A stretch of 64,000 nucleotides of DNA from Macrolepiota albuminosa (taxonomy: Eukaryota > Basidiomycota > Agaricomycetes > Agaricales > Agaricaceae), in contig JAMWFC010000116.1 in NCBI GenBank assembly GCA_027475525.1, positions 2,975,826 to 3,039,825 of the forward strand, written 5' to 3'. Of this stretch, positions 2,651 through 37,259 are shown in pieces. A program made the position numbers and the translations under genes. The notes under the pieces are model-generated. The model was not told the origin of the DNA and made no database searches. It was given only the letters and a program-made list of their open reading frames with translations. Numbering within the stretch: the first letter of the stretch is position 1; each line of letters begins with the position of its first letter.

Positions 2651-3360
2651 GCTCATCTTCTACTCAGAAAGTGCTGTTTCACAGCTTATCTCTGAACAGC
2701 TAGTCCATTTCTCACGATAGATTTGAGGATATTGCTTGTACAATCTGTCGACATAATATAGTTTCGCACTGTTCTACTTATGACTCCGTCTTTGATGTTC
2801 AAGGGACAGGCCTCTCAAGTTCAGACATGAGAAATTAGACCGTTGTTGATCATCCCTATGAATTGTGGAGGATGAATAGAGGACAATTCATAAGAGAATG
2901 TGCCAACCATTTAAATGGTCTGTTAAATGGTTCTAACATGATGCAAAAGTCAATGGTGACAGGCTAATGAGCCCTCTTTTGAGAATGTCATGATTCATCA
3001 GTGTCTCTGAAGCTAATGCTTTTTACCATTCAGTAAAGGGTACTGACCTTGCACAAGAAGTACTGTGATGATAAGTTGTGTTTGAAAACTGGCTGGGAGA
3101 CATTTCAAGGGGAGCCCAGAAACATTATGCCAATATCTACCACTTAACTACCATAACATACGTTGAAATTAGTTTTAGCTTTCTCGAAATCGAGGACTTA
3201 ATGTAGTTCACGCTGCGAGACTCTGAACAGTGTGCCGTGACTATATTCGGAAGTGTCTGCCGAGCCATCGTCAGTGTTGTTGAGGGTGTCAGTTTGTAAA
3301 TGTATCTTCTGAGACCCACAACCGACATCGACCCAGAACGTTAATACTAGAAGAATTCGA
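2651..3360. other. Intergenic region between serine dehydratase and UCH gene
   Basis: About 710 bp with no ORF resembling a protein in either strand. It should hold the dehydratase 3' UTR and terminator and the promoter of the downstream ubiquitin hydrolase. I see no tRNA, repeat or clear motif. Confidence 0.6.
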
Positions 3361-4494
3361 ATGCCTAGCAACCGATGGATTCCACTTGAAAGCAATCCAG
3401 AGGCACGATTGTATGCCAATTATTGAGAGCTTACTGACCGTTGATGGTGGATCAGGTTCTCAACTCTGTCAGGCTACGACTGCTTTCTTCAAAATGTATA
3501 TGCTCACTATCTGATTGACAGTGGTCACGGAAAGCGGGCCTCGTCCTATCTCATGCACACTTCGAAGATGTCTATGGTTTGGATCCCGAGGTATTATAGA
3601 TTTCTATATCTAATAACTCTAGTTTATTTTCCGTACTGTAGCTCCTGGCTATGGTACCTCGGCCTGTCAAGGCTGTCGTACTATTGTTCCCCATTTCTGA
3701 ATTATCAGAGAACAAGCGAAAAGAAGAGGATGAAAAGGTCAAGCAAGAAGGACAATCTCTTGTGGATCCCACCATCTTTTGGATCAAGCAAACGGTTCAT
3801 GCAACATCTTCACGTTCGATGGCGTATCTCATTAAGTATGTACATTCATAGATCTCCAACGCATGTGGCACAATTGGATTGTTGCACGCCTTGGCAAATG
3901 TGAGTGAACGTTCGCACTTGTTGATCTAATCATTGTAATCCAATCCGCCTGCTTTCTGATCTAGTCCAATATCACACTCTCTCCTGAAGGTGCCATCGCA
4001 CAGTTTATCAACATATGCAAAGGTATGCATGCATGTCAGCTTCAAACTCTGCCTGGAACAGTCTCTTCACCATTACAATAGACAAGACACCTGAAGAACG
4101 GGCGAAACTGCTGGAAACTACTCCCCTCTTTGCTGATATCCATGCTGAGGCTGCTTCCAGTGGACAGACCCAGGTCCCAACCGATCTTGACACGGACCTC
4201 CATTTTACGTGCTTTGTTTCTGCGCCTCGGGTGAGGGGGCCAAAAAGCCTGGGCGAATACCGAATTGTTGAATTGGATGGGCGGAGAGCGGGACCGGTTG
4301 ACAGGGGGGAATGTGAGGGCGATTTCTTGCAAGTGAGTCGTGATCATCACTACATCAAGCATCATAATTGTAAGCTCCTCTCACAGGCAGTGGCAAAGAT
4401 CGTCAAAGAAAATTATCTTGCCAATTCGTCGAGTATGCAATTTAGCATGGTCGCACTTTGTCCTGGTTCAGGTGATTGTGAGGCGGATAGATGA
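3361..4494 (+). CDS. Ubiquitin carboxyl-terminal hydrolase, UCH (peptidase C12) family
   Basis: Cysteine protease that removes small adducts from the C-terminus of ubiquitin (UCHL1/UCHL3/Yuh1 family). ATG at 3361 begins MPSNRWIPLESNPE. Splicing then gives VLNSWSRKAGL, FEDVYGLDPE, LLAMVPRPVKAVVLLFPIS, a charged stretch and IFWIKQT. The next exon (about 3850-3899) gives ISNACGTIGLLHALAN with the catalytic cysteine. Later exons give EERAKLLETTPLF, DLHFTCFV with the catalytic histidine and ELDGR with the catalytic aspartate, and the protein ends in a family-typical SMQFSMVALC stretch before TGA at 4492-4494. Six or more short GT-AG introns are needed. Length is about 230-250 residues, normal for the family. 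All three catalytic positions are present, so the gene looks functional. It ends 23 bp from the convergent gene on the minus strand. Confidence 0.92.
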
Positions 4495-6762: not shown

Positions 6763-9700
6763 CTATAAAGCTCCAAAACCAGTCATCGTAGAAGGTATAC
6801 CATTCATCGTGGGTGCCTTCCCGGCGTACCTGAAGAAAGCTGAGTGGTAGACAAAGAAACAGGCAGAAGAAAACTCACCCGTTGGTCAGCAACAAAGTAC
6901 TTCCAAAGCCTGGGTTGATGATAGGAGCTTCAGACTCTGCCAGCTCTTTCTGAGCATCCCTCTTCGACCGCTCCTGGACTTCTTTCTCCAACAATGACAG
7001 CTGCAGAAGGATAAAAAACCACGCCTTTTGATTTCTCAGAGACTCGTACCTTTTCAACCAGCGATCGCTGTACTTGAATTTTGTAGGGCATGTAGAAATC
7101 ATGGAGACCATGTCGCCAGGATAATTCCTCAACAACGTCAGAACGGAGGAGATCGAAGCAGATGAAGAGAACTGCAGCGAAACATTCTTTGTTGCCAATG
7201 TCAACAAAATAGGATAATAGATCCTCAGCAACTTCCGTGGAACCAGACGTTGCCGCAGTGAGCATTGCGTCCTTTGACAGACGATCTCGCTTTGAAAGAG
7301 ATATCGATTCGTCCCAGTGTTTGTTTTTCTAGACAATATGAGCGACCTATCCGCAGATGAAATTCAAAATGATCGTACCTTGTAAAGATGGGCAGCAAGT
7401 CTACGGAACTCTAATAGATCGTGCTTCTCCAAGCGTTGTGCGAGACTGATGTTGTTGAAATTGTCAAAGCTGTCTATTGAGTCTCGCAGCGTTTTGTAGT
7501 CTTCTTCCTCGATAAGAAGGTCGTTGTATGCGTCGTTCACAGCTTCAATGTTTAACTGAATATTGCGCACGGTCAGCACAAGACATTCTGCCGGACCAGA
7601 CCAAAGTTTCTCCTTACATGTTGGACAGCAATAAGGTAAGACCTTATCAAAGGGATGTGATCGATCTGACGAAAGACACGGACAACACGACTATGATCGA
7701 TACGCGGAATGAGGACAGTGAGTAGATCTGTCAACAAGGTAGGTTGTTCTTGCAGATAGAAGGTCAAAGCCTTGTAGTAGCTACAATCAAGTAAATGTCG
7801 GTGGATTACTTGAGTCTATAATGTAGAGATTCTTACATCTCGACATTCGCAGCACGGACAATGACGTCCTTAAATTGATTGTGCTCCCAAGCATCTGCGG
7901 AGCGCTCAATCATTGCCAGGGCAGCATTATCCTGAATTGTTACATCAGAGCTATAGAGTCGAAATATTCGCGACAATTGAGACATACGAATTCGTCGTAT
8001 TTGATGTATAAAAAGACAAGCTCTGGCCATAAATGTGCCTTTTCCGTAGCTTTTATTACCTGAAGATATGAGTTTAATAAATTAAAAACTCAGGGTAAAA
8101 TAATGGATCATACATACCTTGGGGATGTTGATGCGAGATACAAACAACTTGAGATGTTCCATGACTAGGAACAAAACAGTTCAACAACCATTGACTTGCA
8201 AAGAAAGTTAAGCGCACGTTTCACTGGTCGATACTTGCTCAAAAGGATTGAAAGCTCCGTGAAGATACCCATGTGGGCACGCTCCAAACTTAATCCAGCC
8301 TCTAACAGGCTTACAACCTCTTCAAAGTGTCCGCGACGTTCATACATTGAAACCAGTGCAGTTAATTCCTCCTACAGCTTCGTGAGCAGATTCAGTCACA
8401 ACTACGAAAGAGAAACATACCGCATGGACTATGATGTTAAGACCACAAATCTGGGCCAGGCGGAATTCTGACTTTTCAATACAAGCAGCGTGAACCTGCT
8501 TCCAGACTCTGATCCAAGTTATATAGTACTATGTCAAATGGATGAAAACTGGTGAAAGGCTCACTGAGTATTTCCCGCCTTTCGTGCACTTTCCACAGCA
8601 GCCTGGTTTTCACCAAGATAAATCAATGTTGTCGCGAGACGAGCCCAGTTGGAGATGCTGGTAAAGAGCAGCTTTGCAGCCTGGTACAGCTCATCCTCAA
8701 AACATTTCTCCCCGACCTCAAGAACGTCCGCAACGTTTGTCATAGCGAGAAAGTCTTCCATATCATGGAGGCGATCCGTTTTGGCATATGCATAAGCCAG
8801 TTCTGTGTCAATTTTCGGTTCTCGAAGAGTCTTACGGGCCATTTGTAGGAACCTGACGAGATCATCGTGCTTTCCAGCATGGCTGGAAATTTCGATGACC
8901 TCATAGAAATTGGAAGCATCCTCTGCCTTGATATACGAATCTTAAAAGCACTGTCAATCGCACTCGAAATGAACTTAATAATATCTTACCAATGGAATCC
9001 TTGATACGAAGACCGTCAAGCTGTGCCTTTGCAAGCCTACTCCAAACCTCAGGTCGATTGACTTTATTCGCAAAGTCAAGTCCACGATCGATCGAAACAA
9101 TATGTTCAACAAGAACGTTGATGGCCATTGCAAATTGGTCGTATTTTTTGTAGATGGTCAGGGATTCTTCATATAGACCGTGATCTGTGGCAATCTTGGC
9201 AATCTCCCCGGCATCGTAGTTCTGAAGCTTGTTGATATAGCCAACAACCTTGCCTTTATCGGCACGGATAGCCGTCAACAAGAGCAGATTTTGAAGATTT
9301 TTGTTCTCGCTGAAAGGCGATGGTTCAATGATAATCTTCTCCAATAGTTCGATAAGCTCAATGGGAAGGTCCGCCTGGAGGAAAGATTTGACGGTGACAG
9401 ACACATCATCAGGATCTGTACACTCGGGAAGAGCAGTTGCGACTATCTATGTTGCTTGTTAAATAGAGCTCACGATAAGAAAACTTTGCGCCAAACCTGA
9501 TCAATAAGCTGACGACGATGCACATTGTCGTGTATAAGAACCTGGGCCCAGAGCTCGGGTTGGCGACGTTTAACCAGATAACGAGCCTGTTGCTTGAACA
9601 TCGAGTTGTCATTGGTAATTGCGATAAGCTCGTCATCGCAAAGCCCCTTAGCATACGCAATATATGCTAGGTATGGATCCCTCTTTTCACAGAACTTGCC

Positions 9701-12700
9701 GACAATGAGAGGTTCATAAAGCTAGACGGGATTAATAAAAGGTCAAAACTACTGCTGTCTTAGGACAAAAACAGAAGGAACAAACGTTATTTTCTTTAAG
9801 GAACTGTTCAGGATTATTGTTGCTGTCGATATAAATTTTCGCGAGAGCATTGAAAATGGAGGTATCCTGACTACCTGCCTGAACGCGAGCCTCAAGCCAG
9901 GGAAGAATTAGCTTTAGACGATTGCGTTCTTCGACCTCATGAACCAACTCATCGATCGGGAAATTTCCAGTGACAGAGGCAAGTAACCCTTTAATCGTGG
10001 TCTCGTCGCAATCTACATCGAGGAGACCACCGACAACCTGAGGTGTCCGGACCGAATTCACGCGCTGGACATAGATCTCGATGAACTTTGTGAGGCCGTT
10101 CTGATAAAGGTAGAGAACCAAGTCATGGACAAAGTCGAAACGATCGCAAACGATGATGAGAGGAAGCTGATCAGAGAGCTTAGTTTCCTTGAGGAAATTC
10201 TTGACTTTCTCCGGGTTGTAATAATTGCTTTCTCGGCAAATACGTTCAACTTCTCGAATCTGGCCGGTACGCGTGGCTGCTTGGATGTATTTGAAGTGCA
10301 CTTCAGGATCCTCACTTAAGTTCACGACGGAGCCAAGATAGTAGTATAGACCTGGTTTTCCTTAACAGATGGCATTAACGATGAGATAAGCGGCATACCT
10401 TCAAAGCTCCTATAACTTTCAAACAACTCAATCAATTTGACTGGTCCAAGGATGTCTGAGTACTTCGTAGCAATCTGGATAACGGCTTGGAGATTTTGGC
10501 GGATATTGACACGAAGCATCTCGTTCAAGCATGCCATCGATTGCTCCGTAGTCAAGCGACTGAAGTAATTAACGAGCCACTAAAGCTTTCGTAAGAAAAG
10601 GGGAAAAAATGTAGCAGATATCTCTTACGTCCGATTGAAGTGTCGTTGTATGCACGATAGCACGCTTAATATCAGCTAAATCTTCGTAATGCTCAAGTGC
10701 CTTAACAGAGGATGTCAGAATACATCAATCTATGAGTGACCAAAAACATACACGTTGCAATAGACCAGCCTTCTCGCACAGGTTGGCAATCCTTGGTCGA
10801 TCGTAGAAGGAAAACATTTCGTTCCCAAGGATTGCGTCTGCAACCTGTGGAGCATGAACGAGATTCATCTCCAGAAGGCGCGTCTGCAATGGCCCCTGCT
10901 CAGGTTTGTTCTCCTTGAGCGCATCAAGAAGGAAGGACGTGGCAGGTTGAATCATGTTCTGGGACATGAATATATCTACAACCTATCAAAACGTAAGATG
11001 ATGCTTGTCAAATGAGAATTGAGTGGAAACAAGCTTGCCCGGTCAATGTCGATCAAAGGACCAGTCTCATCGTTGACAAGTTGCATCGCGAATTCAGCAC
11101 CTTTCTCCGCGTTCGTACGCATGATATGTTGCAAAAGTGCGACATAATCAGGATGGTGTCCAACCTTCTTGGAGTATAACACTATTTTATCCGTCTGGCC
11201 AGTCTCCACGAAACAAGCGATAACTTTATTAGGTACATTCGCACGGAGGTAGACACTGAGGGCGAGAGTCATGTCATGTAGGCGCACAATATCACCGAGT
11301 TCTTCACTGCAACTAAGCTGTTGCAAATTTAGAATCACCAGAAATTATTATCAATCAGCTAAAAACTAATACCTTGTTCTCTTTGAGCCACTTTTCGAGC
11401 AATTGCTTCCTCCCTTGCTGCAAGACAGGACGCGCGAGTTCCAAAGACTCAAGATGATTGAGTTCACCTTTCTCCAGCAGGATGCCGAAGTACTGCAGGA
11501 TGGGAGAAAGACCACCAGGAGGAGTGGGAGCCTGCTTGAACGACTCAATGACAGCGACAGTTCGAAGGATGCCCTATAGACGATGGATGAAATGCTGCGA
11601 GTCACATAACGTCAGGTGAAACTTACCCTGGGAGAATTCGCTGCAACTTTCGCTGCCTCCCCATATTGACCAGATTGGAAAAGTGTCTGATATTGTTGGA
11701 CATAAAGATCGTCTGCACCAGGCAAATTGGCGCGACTGGCGAGTTTAAAAGCAAGATCTGTGTTATTCAGCGTTGTCAAGATATAGGGAATGACGGTCTG
11801 CTCGTCAACATTAACACTGAGGACTTGTCCCTTCTTGTTGACTCCAATTATACCATTAGTTGTCTCGTGCTCTGCAGTTACAAAGATAGTCTCCCCAGAA
11901 ATGCGATTCATGTATACACATGCACCAGTTTCGAGATCATAAAGATGAATGAAGCCGTATTTCGTGACAAGGTAGATAATACCGTGTTTCTTCGAAACTT
12001 GCATAGCGACAGGAAAGTCATTCGTTGCTTCTGGAGGAAAATAAACATCAACAGCCTTCTTCGTGAAAGGAGGGTCGGGTGCAGTGTGATCAATTTCGAC
12101 AACATGAAGCTGATGTAAGAGCTTGATCAAACAGAGTTCGGCAGTATGACTACGAGACAAACCTTTGCACCAATCGCCGTACGCACAGCAAAAGTGAATA
12201 GCTTCGTAGGCTTTTGGTGACCGTCCAATTTAATCTCGGCGAAAGATGCTGCATGACCTTCGATGGGTTGACTGACGCCACGTTCCCGGCTGTAAAGTTG
12301 CATCGAACCTTTGACTTTAAAAGCAGAAGGATTTGCTGGGTTTCCTGAGATGCCAATAAGAACTAGCCATTTCTCATCGGGGGTTGCGCGATAATTGATG
12401 ATTTGCGCGCCGGCGAGAGTTGGATGACGGTCAAAGATCTTTTGGGGCGGAGAAGTTCCATCCGACAGTGTCCAATGATAGACAGCCGTTTCAGTGACCA
12501 TCCCAATGGTGTTGTCCGACACCCACTTCCAGAAAACGACGTCTTCATTGTTGACATGCGACTTCACTTTCTGCTTCGCTTCAATGTTAAAGATTTGAAG
12601 TGTGCGGCCAGCTGGACGATTCGCCCATTCAATGGTGTGAGAAGGCGGAAATTGATTGACGACGTGCCTTTCAACGCTAGAATCTTCTGCTTCGGATGCA

Positions 12701-13035
12701 TAATCGCAGAGTCAGCAGAAATTGGTCGCCTGAGGACATTGTTGGCGTCGGTGAGGTCAATTATAACGACTTGATTCTGCTCATTGACTTTTTCCCGTAC
12801 ACAGATGAAATGATCGGATTCGAATGTGAGGGTCTGCAAGATAACCCGAGTCAATTGCTGAAATGGATTCTGGGTTATGCTACGGACAAACCTGACAAAT
12901 TTGGTCAGAATGCGCCAGCAAACATGACCCCCTTCAACATACCTGGAATGAAATTGACGCGGGTTGGACACCAAGACTCGAGAGTTGAAGGTGCTCGCAG
13001 AAGGATATGGGTTTTGAAATGTCCACCGCAGCCAT
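6763..13035 (-). CDS. Clathrin heavy chain
   Basis: Structural leg of the clathrin triskelion that coats endocytic and trans-Golgi vesicles. The first exon (ATG 13035-13033) reads [20 protein letters not shown] up to ASISFQ; splicing joins it to [16 protein letters not shown]. The N-terminal beta-propeller follows ([52 protein letters not shown]). Next come the linker and the long series of alpha-helical CHCR repeats, with landmarks such as [40 protein letters not shown] and VYISRINNYD-type motifs near 9200-9400. The trimerisation region gives [17 protein letters not shown], and a last small exon ends [16 protein letters not shown] with TAG at 6765-6763. About 20 introns of about 50 bp. The coding length fits the usual roughly 1,680 residues. 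I see no frame damage. It is convergent with the Rho gene, 292 bp apart. Confidence 0.95.
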
Positions 13036-13652: not shown

Positions 13653-13890
13653 GAGGTATAAAGACTACTTTTGTAAGGAAGGCCTTATCTTTAACTCTAA
13701 CATCCCATATTCATCTGCATCAAACAGCACTGCTGAAAGGTCCATCAGAATTATGACTGGTGCAGTCAGAGCTATGCTAATTGATGCAATTAACTGTAAA
13801 TTTCTGATACGGTCCAGTTCAGGCTGACATTCTGCCGAGAACCTAGACAGACTAAATTTAGATTCGATTATCAATCATTTCTGCATGCTG
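13653..13890 (+). pseudogene. Ty1/copia-like integrase fragment
   Basis: Reading + strand pieces gives KDYFCKEGLIFNSNIPYSSA and then NSTAERSIRIMTGAVRAMLI, resembling the part of a copia integrase core around the catalytic glutamate (typically AERxNRT...ARxML). Only about 70 codons survive, followed by stops. The same fragment with the same flank is present in copy 2 (21646-21855). Short and divergent, so the assignment is moderate. Confidence 0.5.
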
Positions 13891-13952
13891 GCAGTGTAGC
13901 ACAACACATTCCCCACCTCTTTTTGCTTCTCCCCAACACATCCTCTCTCATC

Positions 13953-16900
13953 ATGCCTAAGAGATCTTGTGACTGCAATGTTTGCTGTGGTGCTGAAGTG
14001 TCTTCTACCATCTTTTTGGAGGCATAGAGATTGTTCTAGGCATCAGCCACATAACATATATTTCTATGATGATTTCATCCACAATCAACAGGGCACTGTC
14101 AATCAAATACAGGCATCTAGCCACTTGGCACATTCTGATCAGGATACTGACAGTGATGAAGTAGAATTAGAATCAAGGAAGTGACTGTGTATGGTATGTG
14201 AATAGCATTTTTGTATTATATACAGCACATTTCATATCAATTACAGATTAGTGATAATGAAACTATGATGGAAAATGCTGAATTGCATCAACCTCATTTA
14301 GATTTACTCCAGCAACAAGATTCAAATGAAATGGATGTGGACACTACTATAATAGGAGTAAAATTACCTGCAGCTGGACATAATTCTGGTTCTGAAGTCC
14401 AAGTTCTTGATACTGAAAGAGCTGAACTAGGCTTGGAGAATCTTGGAGACAATGCTATAGAAGAAGAAACTGTACAGTAGCCTGATATCTATATTGAAAG
14501 TCTCCATATATCTCAACAATATAGCTAGTTGATTGAAAAAGCAACTTTGGACAATGATAAACTTGATGAGGAGACTTTGTATAATCTTAGGAATCCTGTT
14601 GAAAGGCCTGTTGATATCACTAGTCCTGATAACAAGCTTTCACTTGAAATATTCACTGCAACCAATTCTAGTAAAGCTTCATATAATCAATGTTGTGCTG
14701 CCATTCTTTGGCATTATCCTGAAAGCAAAATTCTTACACTGATAGGATCCCATACAGGATCAGCACATCAACGGCAGGCTATGGCAATGCAGAACCGACT
14801 CAGGATACCTTAGCGCACGCTAATTATCCAATTTTGGCAATATTTGACAGCCGGGTACTGCAGGAAGCAGATCTGATCAAGGATAGCGCTGACGGCAGCA
14901 AGAATGACAACTGACAGATGGCATCAGTCACTGATGACAGCGCTTAGCAAGAAGATTGATGATTTATCAAAAACTGATGGACAGCCTGGCGTTTGACCTT
15001 GGCAGCTGACACCGCTTAGCGCCCCGATTTGGTGCCTGACATTGCTTAGGAATGTTGACAAACAGAAGGGTGATGGATTGATGGTTTAGCATCGTGATCT
15101 GCCGCCTGGCGCCACTAAGGGTCTTGAATAGACGGTAGGGATCTGAAACTATTGGAGCTACCCCTATAAAATTTTCTAGTTTACCGCACTTTGGCGCTAT
15201 TAGTCACTAGTGACGGTAAACTCATTGTAGTATAAAAGTACTTACCGACTTGTACATACATCACTAGAGAACAGAGTTTTCTGCTCCCCTTACTTCAGTC
15301 TCCCTTATGCTCAAGACCTTATTTACGGTCGGCAACGTCGAACTCATCGGCAGTTGCAGACTATCGCTAGCCTTCGATCTATTCGCACCTTGCAGCTATG
15401 GCAGGCATTAACGATGCTTAGATCTCGCTAAGCTTACCGTATTCTTGCCACTGACATTGCTGTGTGCACTTACTGCTTCTTTCATAGGCGCTTTATCTTA
15501 GCGCTTGATACCTGCCGAACCTCTTTTTACCGACTTTACCTCATTTTTACAGGCGCGTTCTCTGGGACCTGCCTGGAACTCCCTCATCACTTTAGCGTGC
15601 CCAACGCAAGCTTTTGGTCTGGTAACACTATTAATATATTTGTTACTGACCAAACTTTGGGCGTCATCAACACTTTATAAAGTCAAGCAGCTTATTGTCA
15701 ATGCTACTGGCATTGTTCCTATTATGGATAACATGTGCATCAATTCTTGCCATGCTTTTACTGGACCTCTTGCTGAACTTGATGCTTGTAGCATCTGTCA
15801 TGAGCCATAGTATAATGTCAAGCAGCTTGAAAAATATGATAAAAAAATACCTCAACAACAAGCATATACTTTTCCTCTTGGACCTCAAATTCAAACTTTG
15901 TGTCAGTCTGTTGAAGGAGCTCAGAAAATGTGTTATTTTGATCAAAAAATTCAAAAAGTTTCTTAGTTAATCAATAAAATCCAAAAAGATGAAAATAATA
16001 GTGCTATAATTTATGATGATATTTTTTGTGGCAATGAGTTATTGCTCATAATAATCTTCAACTTATTAGCAAAAACACTATGGTTTTTTTAATTGATGGT
16101 GTTCAGCTTTAAAAAAAGAAAAAATCAGATACTTGGATTGCTGGCTGGAAAATTGAAAATTACTTACTTGATCTATGCTTCAAAGAAAAGAAATGGCTTC
16201 TATCTCATATTATTCCTGGCTCAAATAAATTTAAAATCATGAAATCATATACTTTTTGGCCTTTCTATCATTTTGCTGCTTTACAACATGAAAATAGTTA
16301 ACAAGGTCTTGCAGTCTTGGATGCAAAAACACAGAGTATTATTAAATCACATATTATTTTTGCTTTAGCCACAGCTGATGCAGTTGGCATTACTGAATTG
16401 GATGGCTGTATTGGACACCATGGAGCATAGGACTGTAGGCTTAGTTGTGAAATAAAAAGTCAACATAAGCCTAATAGTGGACATTACTTTGCTGCTCATC
16501 TTAGGCCCAATAATTATACTATACTATGCAAGATTGCAATCATCCAGACATCAATATTTGAGAGTTCAAAATTCCTAATATCAATGTTTACAAAGAAAAT
16601 ATTTATAAACTAGTTACATCTAAAGATCAAGCTACTTATAAATGGAATCAAAAAGCTACTGGACTAAGCAAGCCTAGCATTCTCAGTGGCCTTATCCCAG
16701 AACTATCAATACCAGTTTTCAATTGTTTTCTTCTTGATCTTATGCATCTACCTGCACTCAACATTCTTAAATTACTGATTTCAATTTGGCATAATACACT
16801 TAAACATCAATGATGATGATTGGAAATGAGCAATACTTGTTGAAGATCTCTGGATAGAACATGGCAAGCTTATAGAAGCTACAACTCACTATTTTCCCTC

Positions 16901-17347: not shown

Positions 17348-18096
17348 TGTCAGGTTCCGCTGAATCGGGGGCTTTCCGGGAAAGCGACGCCCTTACGATG
17401 CGGACTTGATCTACGGATACTCGGGTGCCTGGAACTCCGGGGCTAGGACTCCGGGGTTCAAGACGAGGACAGGGGTAATCCCGGGAGAGGGGACTATAGT
17501 CCGGGGGTTTTGGGTTGGGGGTGGCTGAGAGTTAGAGGGGGTCGAGTCGTGAACCGGAGGTTCTAAGACGAGACCAAGTTAGTAACTTAAGAGTCGCGAA
17601 GTGCGTACCAAAGCTTAGAGCACGCGAATACTAAGGCGTGCCAGTCGAAGCGTACCAAACAAGGCGTACCAGTCAAACAGAGGGCACGCAATATCCAAAG
17701 TAACAGTATGCAAAGTATGTAATATCAAGACTACCGAATACAACAGGGGGCTACACTATAAGTACTACGGGGCCGGGTCTCGGGGTTCCGGGATGTCTGG
17801 GATGGGTTCCGGGGGTTATTGAGTAGCGGCAGGGGCTGTATACCGGGATCGCGCGTGTGGGGCGCGCGATCAATTGGCGCGGATGGAGCCGTGATGCGTG
17901 ATGCGTGTTGGCCGGTACGAGTCGCGTGATCCGATCGTTGATCGGGGCTGGTGACGGCTGATGGCGGTCCTTGATGCGCGTGATGGCGGTGTCGGTGGTC
18001 GTGATGGCGGGGCGTGTCCTGTGGGGTCGGAGGGAGGGTCCCGGAGGGTGTTCCGGGGGTGTCCCGGGGTGGGCCCGGAGGGGAGGGGTCGTGACA
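17348..18096 (-). repeat. 3' LTR of chromovirus C2
   Basis: 749 bp, in reverse orientation (plus strand reads TGTCAGGTTCCGC to GGTCGTGACA). It matches the LTRs at 36260-37124 and 62752-63629. Directly to its right the plus strand reads tcacccccccctcagc, the complement of a polypurine tract. Confidence 0.88.
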
Positions 18097-18224: not shown

Positions 18225-20033
18225 ATGTCGCGTACGCCAACGCATTCCCCGACGCCCCCGCAAACTAACGAGGTGGCGCCCCTGATGGCCTGGGAGACCC
18301 GGGATGCGCGGTACCGAGCCCGCCTGGACCGGGAGCGCGTGGCGGCGCTTGTACAACAGCGTGAGTGCTTTCGCGAGGGTCCGCTTACCGCGGCTGACGT
18401 TTCCCCTTCAGAACAAAGATCTTCCCCTGCTCCGGAGGCGGGTCCCAGCCGTCTTCCGGAGCCTGCCTCTGGTGGCCCCCCGGCGTCGTCATCCGGTCGT
18501 CCCGCGCCTACCTTCGCGCGGATGACCGTCCGCCCCCCGCGCCCACCTCCCCCTCCTCGTCCTAGGCTGACCGCCCCCCGTTTCCGCCGCTCCGGGATGG
18601 CGGTGGGGGCCATTTCCGAAGTCCCGGAGGACCGACGCGTGGAGTGGGCGGACGCCTCGCAAGAACAGTTTGGGGAGGCTCTGGAGAGGCCTCGGGGTCT
18701 GCCCACCCACGCCTGGTGTGTGAGTAACGGGCCGGTAAGCGAGTTCATACCTCTGGTTTCGCCGCTGACCTCGGTACAGTGTCTGCACTGCGCTCGCTGG
18801 GGGGTTCTCTGCTCATTCGAGGCCCCGGGCCCCTCGTCCCGCCGGGACACGTCCGTGTGCGAGGCCTGCCGCCTCAATCATGAACGGTGTTCCGTGTCGG
18901 CGCTGTGGAGGGCGCGTTGTGTCTCGAGGGAGCAAGGCTGGCCGCTGGGGGGAATTACTCGGAGGATGGGCGTCGAGGAGAGGGATTGGGTGGCGGAGCC
19001 GGAGGGGGGGTCACAGGGGGTGCCCGCGGGGGGTCCAGGAGGGGAGTCGGGGAGCGGGGGTCGCCTTCGGGTGGGGGGCCGGGGCCGGCCCGTGGTCCTC
19101 ATCACGCGCCGGGTGACCCGGGCCGGAGGGAGCCGGGAGGGGCGCGGGGGGCGCCCTGACAAGGGGAAGCGGCGGGCGTCGCCAAGCCCGTCCCCCGGGC
19201 CTTCCAAGAGGGCGCGTCTGCCCTCTGAGACCCCACCCCCGGGTTCCCCGCCGCGCCTGTCCCCAGCGGTGTTCTCCCCCTTGTCCGGGAGGCCCCTGGG
19301 CGTTAGCATCGGGGATCTGCAGGAGCGCCTGGGGCGGGCCGAGCGGGAGCGTGAGGAGGGGATTAGGGAGGAGGCTGCCATTCGGAGGGGCCTGGAGGAG
19401 GGTCGGGAGGCGGCACTCCGGGACCTGGAGGAGGCCAGGGCTGCCCGGGGGGAGGCCGAGGCTGAGCTGGAGGCGCTGAGGGCAAGGCTGGGACAGGGGG
19501 CGGGATTCCCGGAGAGTCAGGAGGGGCTGGTGGAGACCCTGCGTCGGGACGTGGTGGTCGCCCGTATGGCGTCGTTGAGTGAGTACCTCCCTCTTCGGAT
19601 TCGGCCCTCCACTGACGCCCCCAGGCTGGGCCCGGGAGCATCGCTTGCTCTTGGACGGGGCGGCCGCGGCACTCGCGGCGTTGCAGGAGGGGCAGCGCCC
19701 GGAGGTGACGACCCCTGGGGTGGAGCGGGGCCTCGGCTTGCTGGCGCGGGTGGTGTCGGCCCACCGGCGGAGAAACGTGCCGGCCCCGGGCTCTTGGTTC
19801 GAGAGGGTCTTGGACGAGGGGGAGCCCCTGCCGTCCTGGGAGCAACTGGCGGAGGAGACGTTGCGGGAGCATGGCCCGGGCGGGAGGGAAGAGGGGTTCC
19901 GGGGGTGGCCTGGGGAGAGCAACTGGCGGAGGAGACGTTGCGGGAGCATGGCCCGGGCGGGAGGGAAGAGGGGTTCCGGGGGTGGCCTGGGGAAGGGGAA
20001 GGGAGCGAGGAGGTTCCGGGGCCCCAGCGTTAG
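18225..20033 (+). CDS. Antisense accessory gene of chromovirus family C (copy C2): Zn2Cys6-like, coiled-coil protein
   Basis: Opposite strand to pol of C2, between integrase and 3' LTR. It starts MSRTPTHSPTPPQTNEVAPL 128 bp inside the LTR. Conserved splice signals, also present in the copy at 60837-62623, mark three introns: after VAALVQQ (gtgagtgc to cccttcag), before CLHC (gtaagcga to ggtacag) and before WAREHRLLLDG (gtgagtac to cccccag). The cysteine array is CLHCARWGVLC, 15 residues, CEACRLNHERC: C-x2-C-x6-C-x15-C-x2-C-x6-C, like a fungal binuclear zinc cluster with a long loop. A basic stretch (DKGKRRASPS, SKRARL) and a charged heptad-rich region (DLQERLGRAEREREEGIREE onward) follow. A 77-bp duplication at 19841 shifts the 3' frame; without it the frame ends at TAG 20033. 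Very GC-rich. Function unknown; a nuclear DNA-binding role is inference. Confidence 0.7.
   Translation: MSRTPTHSPTPPQTNEVAPLMAWETRDARYRARLDRERVAALVQQRECFREGPLTAADVSPSEQRSSPAPEAGPSRLPEPASGGPPASSSGRPAPTFARMTVRPPRPPPPPRPRLTAPRFRRSGMAVGAISEVPEDRRVEWADASQEQFGEALERPRGLPTHAWCVSNGPVSEFIPLVSPLTSVQCLHCARWGVLCSFEAPGPSSRRDTSVCEACRLNHERCSVSALWRARCVSREQGWPLGGITRRMGVEERDWVAEPEGGSQGVPAGGPGGESGSGGRLRVGGRGRPVVLITRRVTRAGGSREGRGGRPDKGKRRASPSPSPGPSKRARLPSETPPPGSPPRLSPAVFSPLSGRPLGVSIGDLQERLGRAEREREEGIREEAAIRRGLEEGREAALRDLEEARAARGEAEAELEALRARLGQGAGFPESQEGLVETLRRDVVVARMASLSEYLPLRIRPSTDAPRLGPGASLALGRGGRGTRGVAGGAAPGGDDPWGGAGPRLAGAGGVGPPAEKRAGPGLLVREGLGRGGAPAVLGATGGGDVAGAWPGREGRGVPGVAWGEQLAEETLREHGPGGREEGFRGWPGEGEGSEEVPGPQR
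19841..19994. repeat. 77-bp-period tandem duplication (C2 antisense gene)
   Basis: The segment beginning agcaactggcggaggag at 19841 recurs at 19918. It shifts the antisense gene from the frame used after the last intron into the frame that ends at 20033. Confidence 0.9.
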
Positions 20034-20312: not shown

Positions 20313-21347
20313 CTACTGCCGTCTGTGAGTCCTGCGCCCGGGAAGGTCATTCCCCGGGTGCCGCTGTTGGTAGTTCCGGAGTTTGTCGGGGGCGCCCTCG
20401 AGGTTTCGGCGCGGTTCCCAAGTGTCGTCTTCCGGGCCGTATCCCTTCCATCGTACGAGAAAGTGGGGTCGTCCACGAATGTTCCGGGAGTCGAGGATGT
20501 CTTCGACCTCGTAGTGGTACTCGTCCTCGACCTCGACCGGGGGAGGGGGTTCGGGGCGTCGTTCAGGAAAGGGATCCGGGGAGTGTCGTTCCAGGAGGTG
20601 GACGTGGAATACCAGGTGCAGACCTTTTAGTCCCGGGGGGAGCTCGATCTTGTAGGCGTGGGATGAGACCTTCTTCAATATTTTGAACGGGCCGAGACGC
20701 TTGTGATCGAGTTTTGGGGAGGGCCAGCGGGTGCGGAGGTGTCGTCGATCTAACCATACCTTTGTCCCGGGGGCCCAGTCGGGGGTGTCTTCCCGTTTCC
20801 GGTCGGCGTGTTTCACGTAGGCCCGGTTCGCGGTGTCGATCTCTTCCCGGAGGAACTCGTGAAGGGATTGGAGATCCCGGGCGACCTCGTGGGCGGCGTG
20901 CAACGGGATGTTCCGGAGCGAGAGCGTCAGTCGAGGGTGGTATCCCTTGTTGGCGAAGAAGGGCGATACCCCGGTGGCAGAGTGTGGCGTGTTGTTGTAG
21001 GTGAACTCGGCCAGGGGGAGCTCGGCGCGCCAGTTGTCCTGCAAGTAGTTGACGTACAGCCGGAGGTACTGTTCAAGGGACTGGTTGACCCTTTCGGTTT
21101 GACCGTCGGTTTCGGGGTGGTAGGCGGTAGAGAGGTTAGTCTTTACTTCAAGTGCCTTACACAGGGAAGTCCAAAACTTGGACACGAAGAGGGGGCCCCG
21201 GTCGGAGACGATGTCGTCCGGGAGACCATGCTTGGCGAAGACGTGCTCGAGGAACAGCCGGGCGAAGTCCGGGGCGGTATCCGTGGTGTGGCAGGGTAGG
21301 AAGATGCCCTGTTTGGTTAGCCTGCACACAACGACGAGAATGGCATC
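20313..21347 (-). CDS. Ty3/gypsy integrase with C-terminal chromodomain (C2), partial
   Basis: C-terminal part of Pol. From the gap it reads [20 protein letters not shown], the second catalytic aspartate in [13 protein letters not shown], and [20 protein letters not shown] with the catalytic glutamate. [20 protein letters not shown] follows, then the chromodomain [12 protein letters not shown] with [20 protein letters not shown], ending GRRTHRRQ. The visible part is one open frame. The first catalytic aspartate, reverse transcriptase and Gag are hidden by the gap. The chromodomain places the family in the chromoviruses. Unlike element C, the integrase glutamate is intact here. Confidence 0.88.
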
Positions 21348-21447
21348 NNNNNNNNNNNNNNNNNNNNNNNNNNNNNNNNNNNNNNNNNNNNNNNNNNNNN
21401 NNNNNNNNNNNNNNNNNNNNNNNNNNNNNNNNNNNNNNNNNNNNNNN
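21348..21447. other. Assembly gap (100 N)
   Basis: Exactly 100 N, the usual placeholder for a gap of unknown size. It replaces the 5' half of chromovirus C2, expected to be several kilobases from comparison with element C. Confidence 0.97.
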
Positions 21448-21645
21448 CTGTTTTTGCGTCCTGGACATCCGGCTTCCTTCCGAGAGAATGCCACACCATG
21501 CATCCATGAAAATAAATTTATAAGTTTCTAGTAAAGATACTAGCCTACCGATACCTGAAATCCGATCAGAAAAAGGTGGGCCCGATGTGCCGCAATTGTT
21601 GATTTTGTGAAAAGTTTTGCAACACCCAATTGGTAATAGTAAAGA
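21448..21645. other. Unassigned short sequence between gap and Tnp2 copy 2
   Basis: About 200 bp with no match to other parts of the window and no ORF that can be supported. It is unlike the flank of Tnp2 copy 1; similarity starts at the motif taaagactacttttg. Confidence 0.5.
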
Positions 21646-23020
21646 CTACTTTTGTAAGGAAGGCCTTATTTTTAACTCTAACATCCCATATTCATCTGCA
21701 TCAAACAGCACTGCTGAAAGGTCTATCAGAATTATGACTGGTGCAGTCAGAGCTATGCTAATTGATGCAATTAACTGTAAATTTCTGATACGATCCGGTT
21801 CAGGCTGACATTCTGCTGAAAACCTAGACAGACTAAATTTAGATTCGATTATCAATCATTTCTGCATGCTGGCAATGTAGCACAATGCATTTTCCACCTC
21901 TTCTTGCTTCTTCCCAACACATCCTCTCTCATCATGCCTAAGAGATCTTGTGACTGCAATGTTTGCTGTGGTGCTGAAGTGTCTTCTACCACCTTTTTGG
22001 AGGCATAGAGATCGTTCTAGGCATCAGCCACATAACATATATTTCTATGATGATTTCATCCACAATCAACAGGGCACTGTCAATCAAATACAGGCATCTA
22101 GCCACTTGGCACATTCTGATCAGGATACTGACAGTGATGAAGTAGAATTAGAATCAAGGAAGTGACTGTGTATGGTATGTGAATAGCATTTTTGTATTAT
22201 ATACAGCACATTTCATATCAATTACAGATTAGTGATAATGAAACTATGATGAAAAATGCTGAGTTGCATCAACCTCATTTAGATTTACTCCAGCAACAAG
22301 ATCCAAATGAAATGGATGTGGACACTACTATAATAGGAGTAGAATTACCTGCAGCTGGACATGATTCTGGTTCTGAAGTCCAAGCTCTTGATACTGAAAA
22401 AGCTGAACTAGGCTTGGAGAATCTTGAAGACAATGCTATAGAAGAAGAAACTGAATAGTAGCCTGATATCTATATTGAAAGTCTCCATATATCTCAACAA
22501 TATAGCTAGTTGATTGAAAAAGCAACTTTGGACAATGATAAACTTGATGAGGAGACTTTGTATAATCTTAGGAATCCTGTTGAAAGGCCTGTTGATATCA
22601 CTAGTCCTAATAACAAGCTTTCACTTGAAATATTCACTGCAACCAATTCTAGTAAAGCTTCATATAATCAATGTTGTGCTGCTATTCTTTGGCATTATCC
22701 TGAAAGCAAAATTCTTACACTTTATAAAGTCAAGCAGCTTATTGTCAATGCTACTGGCATTGTTCCTATTATGGATAACATGTGCATCAATTCTCACCAT
22801 GCTTTTACTGGACCTCTTGCTGAACTTGATGCTTGTAGCATCTGTCATGAGCCACAGTATAATGTCAAGCAGCTTGAAAAATATGGTAAAAAAATACCTC
22901 AACAACAAGCATATACTTTTCCTCTTGGACCTCAAATTCAAACTTTGCATTAGTCTGTTGAAGGAGCTCAGAAAATGTGTTATTTTGATTAAAAAATTCA
23001 AAAAGTTTCTTAGTTAATCA
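21640..23020 (+). mobile_element. Decayed Tnp2 (CACTA-like) transposon, copy 2, truncated
   Basis: Nearly identical to copy 1 from 21640 onward, including the copia-like fragment (21646-21855) and the cysteine-rich start MPKRSCDCNVCCG (ATG 21934). The Tnp2 stretch ASYNQCCAAILWHYPESKIL runs without interruption into LYKVKQLIVNATGIVPIMDN, because this copy lacks the solo LTR. It stops abruptly at 23020, where copy 1 continues for over a kilobase. Frames are broken at the 5' end; 22510-22953 is one open stretch. Confidence 0.78.
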
Positions 23021-28097: not shown

Positions 28098-29625
28098 ATG
28101 GAGCAGGCAAACACACCACGCATGCTGCCAAGAAACCACTTCTCTTCACTAAAATGGGACGAGACGAAGCCTCGTGAGCTAACACAGTATTTCTGAGAAT
28201 TGGAATATTTATTATGCGACTGCTGAGTTACTGACAACACACAAATGAAAGAATACACCACCAGATACGTTTCATACGATACCACAGAATCCTGGACAGG
28301 ACTGGACGAGTTTCAAGGATTAACACAAGATGCGGTGCCAAGACCGTTTACCTACAAGAAATGGAAAAAGGCAATCATTAAACTGTACCCTGGCGCTGAA
28401 GAATCCACGCGCTATACAGTCCTTGAAATCCAGAAACTGGTACAGGATACCTTTGCAACGGGCATTTATACGTTAGGCATGCTATCTACTTATTATCGAG
28501 ATTTCCAGCGAATTGCACAATGGCTAGTACAGAACGGCAAACTCTACAGGAATGAGGAATGGCGCCTGTTCCAACAAGGGATTCCGACATCGTTATGGAC
28601 TCAAATAGCACGTTGCTTAGAAATTCTTAAGTCTGACCACCATCCTGAGGAACCCTACGATATAGAAGACGTCTTTGAAGCAGGTAAATGGATACTGAAA
28701 GGCATGGATACTGGCATCCCCTTCCAGCGACCCTCTAGTACTGATAACGGAGGAAAGGCGCTGCCCATTGTGGTGCCAGCGCCTAGCGCGACTAACAACC
28801 AGGGAGGCTTTGTTAAGAAGGAGGATCTAGAAAACGCAGTCAACATGGCCATCGCAAACGTTATGAGCAAATTGGAAACGTTAATCTCGACTAGCCTTAA
28901 CGTGCCACGAGGTAATATGCAACCTGGGCTTTGTCACTTCTGTGGTGAGGCGGGACATATGATGACTCGAGGGCGCTGCACTATCCTTGAACAGTATTTA
29001 CGCCAAGAAAAAGCATGTCGGGGTGCCGATGGTAAAATAATCCTACCCTTGGATGCTAACATCCCTCTATATTCCGAGCACCGGACTTTCCAGGGAAGAA
29101 TTGATGAATGGCACCGACGAAACCCTGGGAACTTAGCGACGGGCAACCTCAATAGTATGGCCGCGATGGAGGCAGAGGCAACTCCACAACAGGCGCTAAT
29201 CCATGAAGTACTCCAGCTTAACGCTGTTAGTGAGCGACCGATGTTGTCACAAGAGGAGAGGATTGAGACATTGGAAAGGGAGCTAAAGTCGCTAAAGAAT
29301 CAGGTTTTCAACAGGGTCGAGATTAAAAAGAGCAAGCAACCATTGAAAGACTATAGACCCTCAGGCGCTACGTCAGATCCAGCGCTAGCGAAGCCCTCGA
29401 ATTCCAGCATCAACGACGACACATCCGATATGGCCAAAGCATCAGCTAGCACGGAACCGCCACTACACCCATATTCAGAACTTGCTGGTAACTACGCTCC
29501 GCCTGTCAATCAAAACTTTGGGGTGCCAAACAAGCCAGCAGGAGGCTACCGACCAACGGCACCAATCTACGACATAGAAAAATCCAAGCAAGTATTCGAT
29601 CACATTATGAAAAGTCAAGTCACAA
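28098..29625 (+). pseudogene. Gag of element A, damaged and cut by a solo LTR
   Basis: Capsid-like Gag with a zinc knuckle CHFCGEAGHMMTRGRC (C-x2-C-x4-H-x6-C; spacing longer than the usual x4) at about 28930. A possible ATG is 28098 (MEQANTPRM). The same frame is open upstream to 27786 and conserved with B, but has no ATG there. Two stops (about 28194 and 28224) replace Lys/Arg codons of B. From 28245 one frame is open to the LTR insertion. Near the end it reads RPTAPIYDIEKSKQVFDHIM. Confidence 0.8.
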
Positions 29626-30558
29626 TGATAGGACTCCATACAGGATCAGCGCATCAACGGCAGGCTATGGCAACACAGCACAGGTCCAGGATACCTTAGC
29701 GCGTGCTAACTAACCAATTTTGGCAATATTTGACGGCCGTGCACGGCAAGAAGCAGATCCGATCAATGATAGCGCCGACAGCAGACAGAATGACAACTGA
29801 CAGATGGCATCAGTCGCTGACGACAGCGCTTAGCAAGAAGCCTGATGATCTATCAAAAACTGACAGACAGCTTGGCATTTGACCTTGTTGGCATCTGACA
29901 CCGCTTAGCGCCTCAATCTGGTGCCTGACATTGCTAAGCATTTTGGACAGACAGAAGGGTGATGGATTGATGGTTTAGCTTCGCGATCTGCTGCCTGGCG
30001 TTGCTAAGGTTCTTAAATGGACGGTAGGAATCTGAAACCGTTGGAGCTACCCCTATGAAATTTTCTAGTTTACCGCACTTTGGCAATGGTTGGTCACTAG
30101 CGATGGTGAACTCATTGTAGTATAAAAGTACTTACCGACTTGTAAATAGAACAATAGACCAGAGTTTCCTGCTCCCCTTACTTCAGTCTCCCTTACACCA
30201 GAGATTTCATTTACAGTTGGCAACATCGAACTTGTCGGCAGTTGCAGACTTCATCGCTAGCCTTCGACCTATTCACGCCTTGCAGCTACAGCAGGCATTT
30301 ACAACGCTTAGACTTCGCTAAGCTTACCGTGCTCTTGCCACTCATGTTGCCGTGTTCACTTACTGCTCTCTTCATAGGTGCTTTACCTTAGCGCGTTACG
30401 CTTGCCGACCCCCTTACCGACTTTTCCTCATTTTCATAGGCGCGTTCTCTGGGACCTGCCTGGGACTCCTCACATTACTTATAGCGCGCCCAACGCAAGC
30501 TATTGGTATGGTAACATTATAGTTATATTTGTTGCTGACCAAACTTTGGGCGTCATCA
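29626..30558 (+). mobile_element. Solo LTR-F inserted in gag of element A
   Basis: 933 bp, TGATAGGACTCC to GGGCGTCATCA. Flanked by acaa (29622-29625) and acga (30559-30562), a 4-bp duplication with one change. Element B is uninterrupted here (gttacgctatcggtagg at about 47690). Confidence 0.85.
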
Positions 30559-31320
30559 ACGATGTCGGTAGGGGAGCTATGCAGTGTGGCGCCAGATGTC
30601 AGGAATCAGATGCGTACAGCAGTTACCCCTCGACGAAACGTAGCTAACAATGTAATGGCAGTGGACAAATGCGACGACGCGCTACCTGGATTCGCGTACA
30701 TAACAGAGACGGTAGCACTGGAAATCAAAGAAGAAGCTGAGCCACCCAAAGAAGCTACGTCAATTGACCCAGTCGAAACCTACCTTAAGTCGCTAAGATC
30801 TAGCGACAATCCTGCTGTCCTCACTGTAGCCCAAGACTCTCACGTGATTCGCTCGATTATGTTGACAGTTGATGGAAAAAGCAAGATAGAGTCTATCGTG
30901 GACAGCGGATCACAGATTATTTCAATGGCTGCCGACGTCGCTAACAAGCTTGGCATCATTTACAACCCAACCATCATTCTTAATATGCAAAGCGCTAACA
31001 GCACTATTGATCAATCCTTGGGAATGGCCCGTAACGTGCCATGTGCTGTTGGCAATCTTACGTTTTACCTTCAAATCCACATTCTTAGATCACCTGCGTA
31101 CGACTTATTATTAGGAAGGCCCTTCGACATCTTAGCACGATCGGTAGTCAAGACGACATCTGAAAACGAAACGACGCTAACTATTAGCGACCCTAATTCA
31201 GGCATCAGGAGAATGGTACCGACGTTTCCCCAGGGGAAATTCCAGAAGCCAGGACCGAGAAAGCAACCTTATGTTAGCGATGACCCTTACAAGTGTTTTC
31301 CAGCGCCATCGAGGAGATGA
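30559..31320 (+). CDS. Gag C-terminus and aspartic protease of element A
   Basis: Continues the Gag-Pro frame after the solo LTR: VGELCSVAPDVRNQMRTAVT, then the retropepsin-like domain with catalytic triad DSG in SIVDSGSQIISMAADVANKL (about 30890), and PAYDLLLGRPFDILARSVVK as the C-terminal flap/ILG-like region. It ends FPAPSRR with TGA at 31318-31320. The protease triad is intact in A, unlike B (DSR) and E (NSG). Pol begins at the overlapping ATG 31317. Confidence 0.75.
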   Translation, partial: TMSVGELCSVAPDVRNQMRTAVTPRRNVANNVMAVDKCDDALPGFAYITETVALEIKEEAEPPKEATSIDPVETYLKSLRSSDNPAVLTVAQDSHVIRSIMLTVDGKSKIESIVDSGSQIISMAADVANKLGIIYNPTIILNMQSANSTIDQSLGMARNVPCAVGNLTFYLQIHILRSPAYDLLLGRPFDILARSVVKTTSENETTLTISDPNSGIRRMVPTFPQGKFQKPGPRKQPYVSDDPYKCFPAPSRR

Positions 31321-35968: not shown

Positions 35969-36656
35969 TGCAAAGACTGATGAGATCCAGGTGATGCATA
36001 TGCAATTTATAGGACACGGCTAGCGTTTTGACGAGCGACAGCGTGGGAGGACGTTTCACAAGAAACGAGGACCCTGGCAAAGATACTAGCCAATGAGAGG
36101 CGCTTGACTCATTGTTGGATCACGCAAAAAGGAAATCGACATTCTAGACCTAGCGCTTGTGATCACCATCACTGAATAGCCACAAAGTGATCACTGGCAC
36201 TCTATTACTTTATAGACTAAACTTCTTGCATGGATCCACTTATTATTTACAGACGATACTGTCACGACCCCTCCCCCCTGGAACCTCCCTGGGACACCCC
36301 CGGAGCCTCATCCAGGAACCTCTTTCGTCAATCCCACAACACACCCCGCCCCCACAGCTGCCGACGCTGCCATCACATGCATCAACGACTGCCATCAGCC
36401 GTCAATGATCACTATCAGCCAGCCCCCCCGGGACCCCTGCATCATGGACCCCGGGATCAACCACCATCAACGATCGGATCACGCGGCTCGCATCCAGCCA
36501 TCACGCATCACGCACCACGCATCACAACTCCCTCCATGCCAATTGATCGCGCATCCCCACACGCGTGATCCCGGTATACAGTCCCTGACCGCTACTCAAT
36601 GGCCCCTGGAACTCATTCCAGACACTCCGGATCCCCGAGACACGATCCCGTAGTAC

Positions 36657-36810
36657 TTATAGTATAGTTCTCCGCTGTATTTGCTAGTCTTGATATTACA
36701 TTGCATTACTTGGATTGTTGCGTGCCCTCTATTTTATAGTATAGTTCTCCGCTGTATTTGCTAGTCTTGATATTACATTGCATTACTTGGATTGTTGCGT
36801 GCCCTCTATT
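36657..36810. repeat. 77-bp-period tandem duplication (5' LTR of C)
   Basis: ttatagtatagttctccgc at 36657 recurs at 36734. The 3' LTR of the same element lacks it here, so it was not inherited through reverse transcription. Confidence 0.9.
36686..36698 (+). promoter_or_regulatory. Putative self-primer (5' end of R) of chromovirus C
   Basis: AGTCTTGATATTA is the exact reverse complement of the 13 bases directly after the LTR (37125-37137). It lies about 30 bp after a TATA-like sequence, where the transcript would start. This is the arrangement of Tf1/sushi-type self-priming. Confidence 0.65.
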
Positions 36811-37105
36811 CAACTGGTACGCATTGACTGGCACGCTTGGATAATCGCGTGCTCTAAGACTGGTACACACTTCGCGACTTTAACTTACTAACTTGGTCTC
36901 GTCTTAGAACCTCCGGTTCACGACTCGACCTCCACCCGAACTCCCCAGTTACCCACCACCCAAAACCCCCGGACTAAGTCCCCTCTCCCGGGATTCCCCA
37001 GTCCACGCCTTGAACCCCGGAGTCCTAGCCCCGGAGTTCCAGACACCCGAGTATCCGTGGGTCAAGTCCGCATTGTAAGGGCGATTGCTTTCCCAGAAAG
37101 CCCCC

Positions 37106-37259
37106 AACTCAGCGGAACCTGACATAATATCAAGACTCTCTCCTTACACCGTTCTTGATGGCTACGTATACTCACACCTACTAACTCAGCGGAACCTGAC
37201 ATAATATCAAGACTCTCTCCTTACACCGTTCTTGATGGCTACGTATACTCACACCTACT
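37106..37259. repeat. 77-bp-period tandem duplication (LTR end, PBS and leader of C)
   Basis: aactcagcggaacctgaca at 37106 recurs at 37183. It doubles the LTR terminus, primer binding site and gag start codon (ATG 37158 and 37235). Confidence 0.9.
37125..37137 (+). promoter_or_regulatory. Primer binding site of chromovirus C (self-complementary to LTR)
   Basis: TAATATCAAGACT directly follows the LTR end CTGACA. It does not begin with TGG, so tRNA priming is unlikely. It pairs over 13 bases with 36686-36698. Confidence 0.65.

Follow-up and report, generated by a model that had tools for sequence, protein, structure and literature searches.

We describe here an antisense gene of a fungal retrotransposon, found in a 64-kb stretch of Macrolepiota albuminosa DNA (called the window below; contig JAMWFC010000116.1), a repeat-rich part of an assembly of 100 Mb in 129 contigs. 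The explanation that we favour, and consider fairly probable, is that this locus is a spliced, protein-coding gene which a fungal Ty3/gypsy chromovirus carries as an accessory, and that its product, encoded close to the long terminal repeat (LTR), is a putative nuclear regulator. It lies beyond pol and before the 3' LTR, and its reading direction runs from the side of this LTR to pol. At the level of sequence we could demonstrate selection on codons, conserved splice signals, a constant antisense location, a cysteine array, a basic stretch, a predicted helix, and a second family with a like arrangement.

The gene was aligned in 22 copies, two from the window and 20 from elsewhere in the genome. 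The original prediction, made from the DNA letters of the window, had placed two copies opposite to pol, and this holds: copy 1 lies on the + strand (18225-20033) and its pol on the - strand, copy 2 on the - strand (62623-60837) and its pol on the + strand. All 22 copies have the exon-1 ATG, which stands 127-130 bp from the inner end of the LTR in all 18 copies where the distance was measurable; the LTR end was located as an exact string, which had no match in four of the 22 copies examined (L010, L015, L016, L021). Three introns with conserved signals had also been proposed, and in each of them GT and AG are kept across the 22 copies, no site being lost in more than one copy. In the copies displayed a CTGAC, CTGAT or CTAAC stands 5' of the acceptors, the exception being TTGAT in intron 1 of L027. 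The introns are 43-51 nt long, and intron 3 measures 46 nt in 18/22 copies, thus most copies reach the conserved frame of exon 4 only through splicing. One boundary of the proposed model had to be moved, since intron 2 most likely starts 15 nt after the first candidate donor; the upstream donor (18720) was rejected, GT being present there in 20/22 copies vs 22/22 at the donor 15 nt downstream.

Comparison of the copies supports the conclusion that the antisense gene is protein-coding and under purifying selection. Over all pairs, transitions per site amount to 0.095, 0.087 and 0.166 at codon positions 1, 2 and 3 and to 0.180 in the introns, the corresponding transversions being 0.033, 0.027, 0.082 and 0.051. 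Position 3 and the introns evolve about two times faster than positions 1 and 2, and the ranking of the coding positions is unchanged without CpG sites. In the frame of the gene the ratio of nonsynonymous to synonymous substitutions (dN/dS, Nei-Gojobori) is 0.20 between copy 1 and the diverged copy L022, 0.23 between copy 1 and copy 2, and 0.13-0.38 in the ten pairwise comparisons among five copies that lack a premature stop. A ratio near 1 over many copies had been named beforehand as a possible refutation of the original prediction; the value over all pairs is 0.26. Calculated likewise over all pairs, the ratios of the remaining five frames are 0.44-1.44, where the 0.44 belongs to the opposite-strand frame whose third positions coincide with those of the gene frame. 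Columns gapped in copy 1 are omitted from the rates, the dN/dS values and the cysteine counts, and inserts of other copies are unscored; gene positions after 1599 were excluded because of a 77-nt duplication. In the dN/dS calculations of both families, codon pairs containing a stop were set aside and counted separately. Furthermore, between L022 and copy 1 each of the seven exon indels has a length divisible by three, and the three intron indels are all single bases.

The place of the gene in the element is fixed. A six-frame search with exon 3, which scored 144 of 1193 loose candidates, listed 150 of 152 matches, of which 133 have at least 700 nt, and 107 of the 133 contain no stop; the antisense gene occurs at more than 100 listed places of this one genome. 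In the search with the C-terminus of pol, which scored 150 of 2557 candidates, 64 of the best 150 matches have an exon-3 match at most 4 kb downstream, on the opposite strand in every case and after a gap of 608-964 nt. An exon-3 match on the strand of pol itself was found for none of these best 150 matches.

Five copies run to the usual stop, and with splicing at the downstream intron-2 donor they encode proteins of 527-538 residues. These proteins begin with the conserved MSRTPTHSP and continue with a segment rich in Pro and Arg, the eight cysteines, the DKGKRRASPSPSPGPSKRARLP stretch, a charged helix and the conserved exon 4. The spacing C-x2-C-x6-C-x15-C-x2-C-x6-C reported in the original prediction is present in both window copies, and all six of its cysteines are kept; the array proved to be larger, since two more positions, the first ahead of intron 2 and the second behind the array as first drawn, are equally conserved, and the full spacing is C-x5-C-x2-C-x6-C-x15-C-x2-C-x6-C-x9-C. 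Among the 176 cells of the eight positions in the 22 copies, 174 are Cys, one is Tyr and one is a gap, with mean residue conservation at 86%. The KR-rich stretch and the charged region of the original prediction were likewise recovered: the basic stretch DKGKRRASPSPSPGPSKRARLP is well kept, and a long charged helix is confidently predicted by AlphaFold in residues 177-238 of exon 3, with 46 residues at a predicted local distance difference test (pLDDT) of at least 90. The alignments used for folding hold 16 of the 22 copies, picked for an open array. The array may be a metal-bound nucleic-acid-binding module.

A whole-protein search returned no homologue at E 0.001 among 7989 scored candidates, and Pfam assigned no family to the antisense gene in its read-through protein. 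When the search was limited to residues 118-228, one protein was found among 79 candidates: P0006, an unnamed database protein (source tag lgn), is 57% identical over 257 residues, keeps all eight cysteines and reads through intron 2.

The membership of the gene in a chromovirus family, also part of the original prediction, was confirmed on the element of copy 2. Its pol matches Chromo (E 1.2e-10), Integrase_H2C2 (1.7e-22), RT_RNaseH (1.5e-33) and also reverse transcriptase (RT) above the Pfam cut-off, and the gag, protease and rve matches are below it. With integrase, chromodomain, RT-RNase H and an LTR pair this element is a chromovirus, i.e. a chromodomain Ty3/gypsy element. Its LTRs are flanked by GATAC and GATAT, probably a 5-bp target duplication with one mismatch. 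On the - strand the copy-1 element has the order integrase/chromodomain region, antisense gene, LTR; its integrase/chromodomain open reading frame (ORF) extends over 20313-21527 (-) and holds 100 N at 21348-21447. Direct repeats (96-97%) at 13659-15969 and 21640-23016 flank the copy-1 region next to the 100-N gap, and the copy-1 element may sit in an interrupted repeat. Both window copies had been expected to encode the protein. This stands for copy 1, where the 77-nt tandem duplication shifts the C-terminal frame, but copy 2 was rejected as a coding copy, its TAG lying directly before the first cysteine and 19 nt of exon being deleted. Over most of the gene the copy L022 (gene 1981-3705) shares about 81% identity with copy 1, but over the last 117 nt matched the value is 98%; this jump in identity is a sign of recombination between element lineages. 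The features of the window are collected in the table below.

Table. Antisense genes and their host elements in the window (coordinates and strands refer to the window).
Feature	Position	Strand	Details
3' LTR, copy-1 element	17348-18096	-	749 bp, TGTCACGACC...CCTGACA on the - strand; ends read directly, LTR repeated at 62752-63629
Copy-1 antisense gene, exon 1	18225-18360	+	ATG 129 bp from LTR inner end
Intron 1	18361-18411	+	51 nt, GTGAGT...CTGAC...CAG; GT 21/22, AG 22/22
Exon 2	18412-18734	+	ends ...HAWCVSNGP
Eight-cysteine array, copy 1	18717-18920	+	split by intron 2
Intron 2	18735-18779	+	45 nt, phase 0, immediately before first CxxC; GT 22/22, AG 21/22
Exon 3	18780-19578	+	Cys array, basic stretch, long charged helix
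Intron 3	19579-19624	+	46 nt, GTGAGT...CTGAC...CAG; GT 21/22, AG 22/22
Exon 4	19625-20033	+	WAREHRLLLDG...; contains 77-nt tandem duplication 19840-19993
Integrase C-terminus and chromodomain region, copy-1 element	20313-21347	-	92% like 43510-44551, where Pfam Chromo matched
5' LTR, copy-2 chromovirus	36260-37124	+	779/850 aligned positions same as 3' LTR
gag-pol ORFs, copy-2 chromovirus	38155-44544	+	Pfam domains
Family-2 gypsy LTR element	44546 to ~60720 (right boundary approximate)	+	LTR pair starting 44546 and 59398; pol domains
Family-2 antisense gene	55702-59256	-	exon 1 59256-58999, cluster exon 57157-56162 (six Cys), last exon ending 55702
Copy 2 of antisense gene, broken	60837-62623	-	TAG before first Cys; 19-nt exon deletion
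3' LTR, copy-2 chromovirus	62752-63629	+	LTR pair

A second gypsy family with an antisense gene of its own was recognized inside the copy-2 chromovirus, nested between its pol and its antisense gene. The pol of this family-2 element matches Integrase_H2C2 and RNase H, and no chromodomain match was obtained in the element by Pfam. The antisense gene stands again on the side of pol toward the 3' LTR, its ATG (59256) being about 140 bp from the 3' LTR. The exon model consists of exon 1 and then of the part from the MFTD exon on, with exons assigned outside 58000-57330. The cysteines follow C-x2-C-x8-C-x8-C-x2-C-x6-C, and all six are kept in 12/12 copies; Pfam found no Zn_clus in the array of 11 members. 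In 10 of the 12 copies the two exons read have no stop, one of these (L033) having a one-base deletion. Transitions reach 0.066 at codon position 3 vs 0.039 and 0.021 at the other positions, and over 66 pairs the gene frame has a dN/dS of 0.24, vs 0.35-1.63 in the other five. The short intron departs from position 3, with lower transitions (0.031-0.043) and higher transversions (0.027-0.032 vs 0.008).

Additionally, four hypothetical proteins of Termitomyces (C0992_009841, C0992_013004, C0992_007837 and J132_04962) match the region of the family-2 array with 41-59% identity over 27-29% of the query, and all of them keep the six cysteines. Exon 1 is matched as well by J132_04962 (31%, E 9e-10) and the last exon by C0992_009841 (31%, E 8e-14), which supports that the family-2 parts belong to one multi-exon gene. 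Common to both families is a phase-0 intron whose 3' end adjoins the first Cys codon of the leading C-x2-C pair, and because of this shared intron there are hints that the two fungal antisense genes descend from one captured gene. The window copy of family 2 is interrupted by a 964-bp insertion (about 58005-58968), missing in 10 of the 11 other copies and matched in the remaining one, L035; the insertion is a dispersed repeat, seen also at 14736-15192 and 29622-30562. The end of another family-2 antisense gene copy lies at 63880-64000 (-), at the right edge of the window and outside the copy-2 chromovirus.

The same data have to be weighed under other explanations. The protein might be an anti-silencing factor, binding the DNA of the element and removing or blocking heterochromatin or methylation with no direct role in LTR transcription. 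It would be in line with this that the basic stretch is among the best-conserved parts of the protein, that the elements are of high copy number, and that in the LTR pair of the copy-2 chromovirus 56 of the 71 differences are transitions, compatible with methylation. However, the Pfam searches revealed no enzymatic domain, and the anatomy fits an LTR regulator equally, so we regard an anti-silencing role as rather unlikely. A helper of the particle or of nucleic acids, which aids Gag packaging or reverse transcription of the RNA or guides integration, would suit a Cys-rich, basic, coil-bearing protein that is kept together with gag-pol; it is quite unlikely, since antisense transcription would uncouple its expression from gag-pol and the array is without CCHC spacing.

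It is also improbable, to a slightly greater degree, that a captured host zinc-cluster-like gene acts on host genes instead of the element. Host origin is a usual source of accessory genes and there is a weak Zn_clus signal, but the linked copies stand at one place in the element. The functional product could be the antisense RNA, which might overlap the sense RNA, as the gene is convergent with pol, and control the sense transcript as double-stranded or long non-coding RNA; long non-coding RNAs antisense to transposable elements are reported for a powdery mildew (PMC10648671). Nevertheless, dN/dS of 0.20-0.26 in one frame only, frame-preserving indels and the 174/176 Cys cells make this very improbable, and RNA as the sole function is disfavoured by the codon-level selection. 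Finally, an ORF that arose by chance in GC-rich DNA, or a sense gene of env type encoded by the opposite strand, has practically no probability and was rejected on dN/dS by frame: the region has 71.5% GC and other copy-1 frames are open for 170-409 codons, but over all pairs the other five frames have the high ratios given above and more stops, splice sites are conserved in 22 copies, and the databases hold a 57% identical relative (P0006).

For the regulator that we favour, the following mechanism is proposed. An antisense promoter in the 3' LTR, or in the leader adjoining it, would give an mRNA which is then spliced, and the protein would enter the nucleus, dimerise through its helix and bind metal and nucleic acid by its Cys array. 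There it may tune the transcription from the LTR of its own element, or the silencing of the element, as HBZ and APH do in human T-cell leukemia viruses (HTLV). The introns could survive retrotransposition in this orientation because the genomic RNA would hold only their complement, which is not spliced there. Conserved islands were sought in the LTRs of 17 of the 22 copies, omitting L010, L015, L016, L021 and L013 (with the same figures as L012); they include a repeat with 5-bp arms, GAACC-GGA-GGTTC, and a CTATAAGTACTA island. The latter lies about 457 bp before the antisense ATG, is conserved at 90% or more per column in the 17 LTRs, and in the LTR 17348-18096 reads TATA-like in the antisense direction.

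Several observations weigh against a spliced, LTR-proximal nuclear regulator. The usual stop is reached in 5/22 copies, and 7/22 have no premature stop when spliced at the upstream intron-2 donor; the splicing itself we infer from conservation rather than from RNA reads. In the profile search for Zn_clus that the original prediction had proposed as a check, 13 of 16 array sequences gave matches below the cut-off (best E 0.023), the first array member reaching 14.7 bits vs a Pfam gathering cut-off of 21, and the spliced L022 protein matched no Pfam family at E 1. Searches of the PDB gave no related solved structure for the Cys-array protein, and the AlphaFold confidence over the array is low (pLDDT about 55 and 46, one run being that of the 74-residue array), a value that does not refute a Gal4-type fold or a metal site. 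In a profile comparison of the arrays of the two families no homology was detected (probability 0.2%), so their common origin is a lead only, to which the common intron position and the sequence of parts point. Among the best 150 pol matches, 86 are without a listed exon-3 neighbour; six of them have, 274-401 nt downstream, a match to the DNA of the gene, and a seventh is copy 2, which carries the nested insertion. The remaining 79 have no known neighbour, so some of the elements may lack the gene. In the 17 aligned LTRs the conserved islands are short, and neither a conspicuous conserved CGG palindrome nor a binding site was found.

One property of the assembly has to be considered when reading frames in the window are interpreted. 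Eleven tandem pairs are spaced exactly 77 nt (starts 19840, 33889, 36657, 37106, 37441, 47960, 51174, 54286, 54961, 55978 and 59934); seven of them are identical at 77/77 positions and the remainder at 71-76 of 77. When periods of 40-160 were scanned, only 77 yielded tandem pairs of at least 93% in the window, at 18 places. This one fixed length suggests that the pairs probably arose during assembly, as an artefact of a k-mer size of 77. Such duplications shift the frames of ORFs, and one sits in exon 4 of copy 1. Elsewhere in the window, at 8901-12711 (-), there are pieces of a host clathrin heavy chain gene (Pfam Clathrin, Clathrin_propel).

The array may be compared with the Gal4-type Zn2Cys6 cluster (PF00172), which it resembles in its two C-x2-C-x6-C halves, in a coil farther on and in the weak Zn_clus signal. 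It differs in the middle loop, x15 here and 5-12 there (a range quoted in the original prediction), in the two extra conserved cysteines, in a score below the cut-off, and in the predicted helix, which lies about 140 residues after the array. Neither fungal family has Gal4-type spacing: family 1 departs by the x15 middle loop, family 2 by x8 in the first half.

The original prediction had stated that no described family exists. This holds for the libraries used and for the papers listed by the literature searches, among which there was no fungal antisense gene of this kind, most subscription papers being outside the coverage; antisense genes between pol and the 3' LTR are nevertheless known from plants and HTLV. 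According to the passages available from two articles, antisense ORFs (aORFs) of plant Retand/Tat Gypsy elements (Grande gene23, RIRE2, Retand; TRP28 domain PF04195) lie between pol and the 3' LTR (PMC11963269, PMC7264820). They are reported there in most Retand clusters, as nuclear in Grande, and with a suggested DNA-binding and regulatory role (PMC11963269, PMC7264820), and 97% of the Retand aORF clusters encode TRP28 (PMC11963269). They occupy the same place as the gene described here and are its nearest structural analogue. However, Retand is a non-chromovirus plant lineage and the element here has a chromodomain, Pfam found no TRP28 match in the fungal antisense gene, and the Retand passages mention no Cys array, the word zinc being absent from the accessible text of PMC7264820 and PMC11963269 and the word intron from that of PMC7264820. 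Maps of Tcn1-like chromoviruses name an additional ORF of unknown function, and the main text of that article is free of the words antisense, opposite and zinc (PMC2864245). The Termitomyces relatives are known here by their protein sequences and are named only hypothetical protein.

HBZ of HTLV-1 and APH of HTLV-2/3/4 are transcribed in antisense from the 3' LTR, have spliced forms, are mostly nuclear and lower LTR-driven expression, as stated in a passage of PMC10186651. They are the nearest working analogue, their function being shown there and proposed here by analogy; in the fungal gene the splice signals and the nearness to the LTR are seen in the DNA, and a spliced transcript from a 3' LTR promoter is putative. 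HBZ carries a bZIP and belongs to deltaretroviruses, whereas the fungal host element is a chromovirus, and no bZIP family was found by Pfam in the fungal antisense protein at E 1. Because it has no bZIP and no TRP28 and its host is a chromovirus, the gene was filed neither under HBZ/APH nor under the Retand aORFs. We tentatively propose, as an idea that we hold a little less probable than its contrary, that spliced antisense regulators with a zinc-cluster-like array form a class, so far without a name, carried by at least two fungal Ty3/gypsy lineages, which would then be the third case beside deltaretroviruses and Retand. If true, LTR elements controlling themselves by an antisense-encoded nuclear protein would include mushroom retrotransposons, some Cys-rich mushroom proteins now called hypothetical may be transposon genes, and antisense regulators would seem to arise repeatedly in LTR elements. 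The function of antisense accessory genes is known in HTLV, and in plants they are described without function; the gene presented here would offer a fungal system for asking what such genes do.

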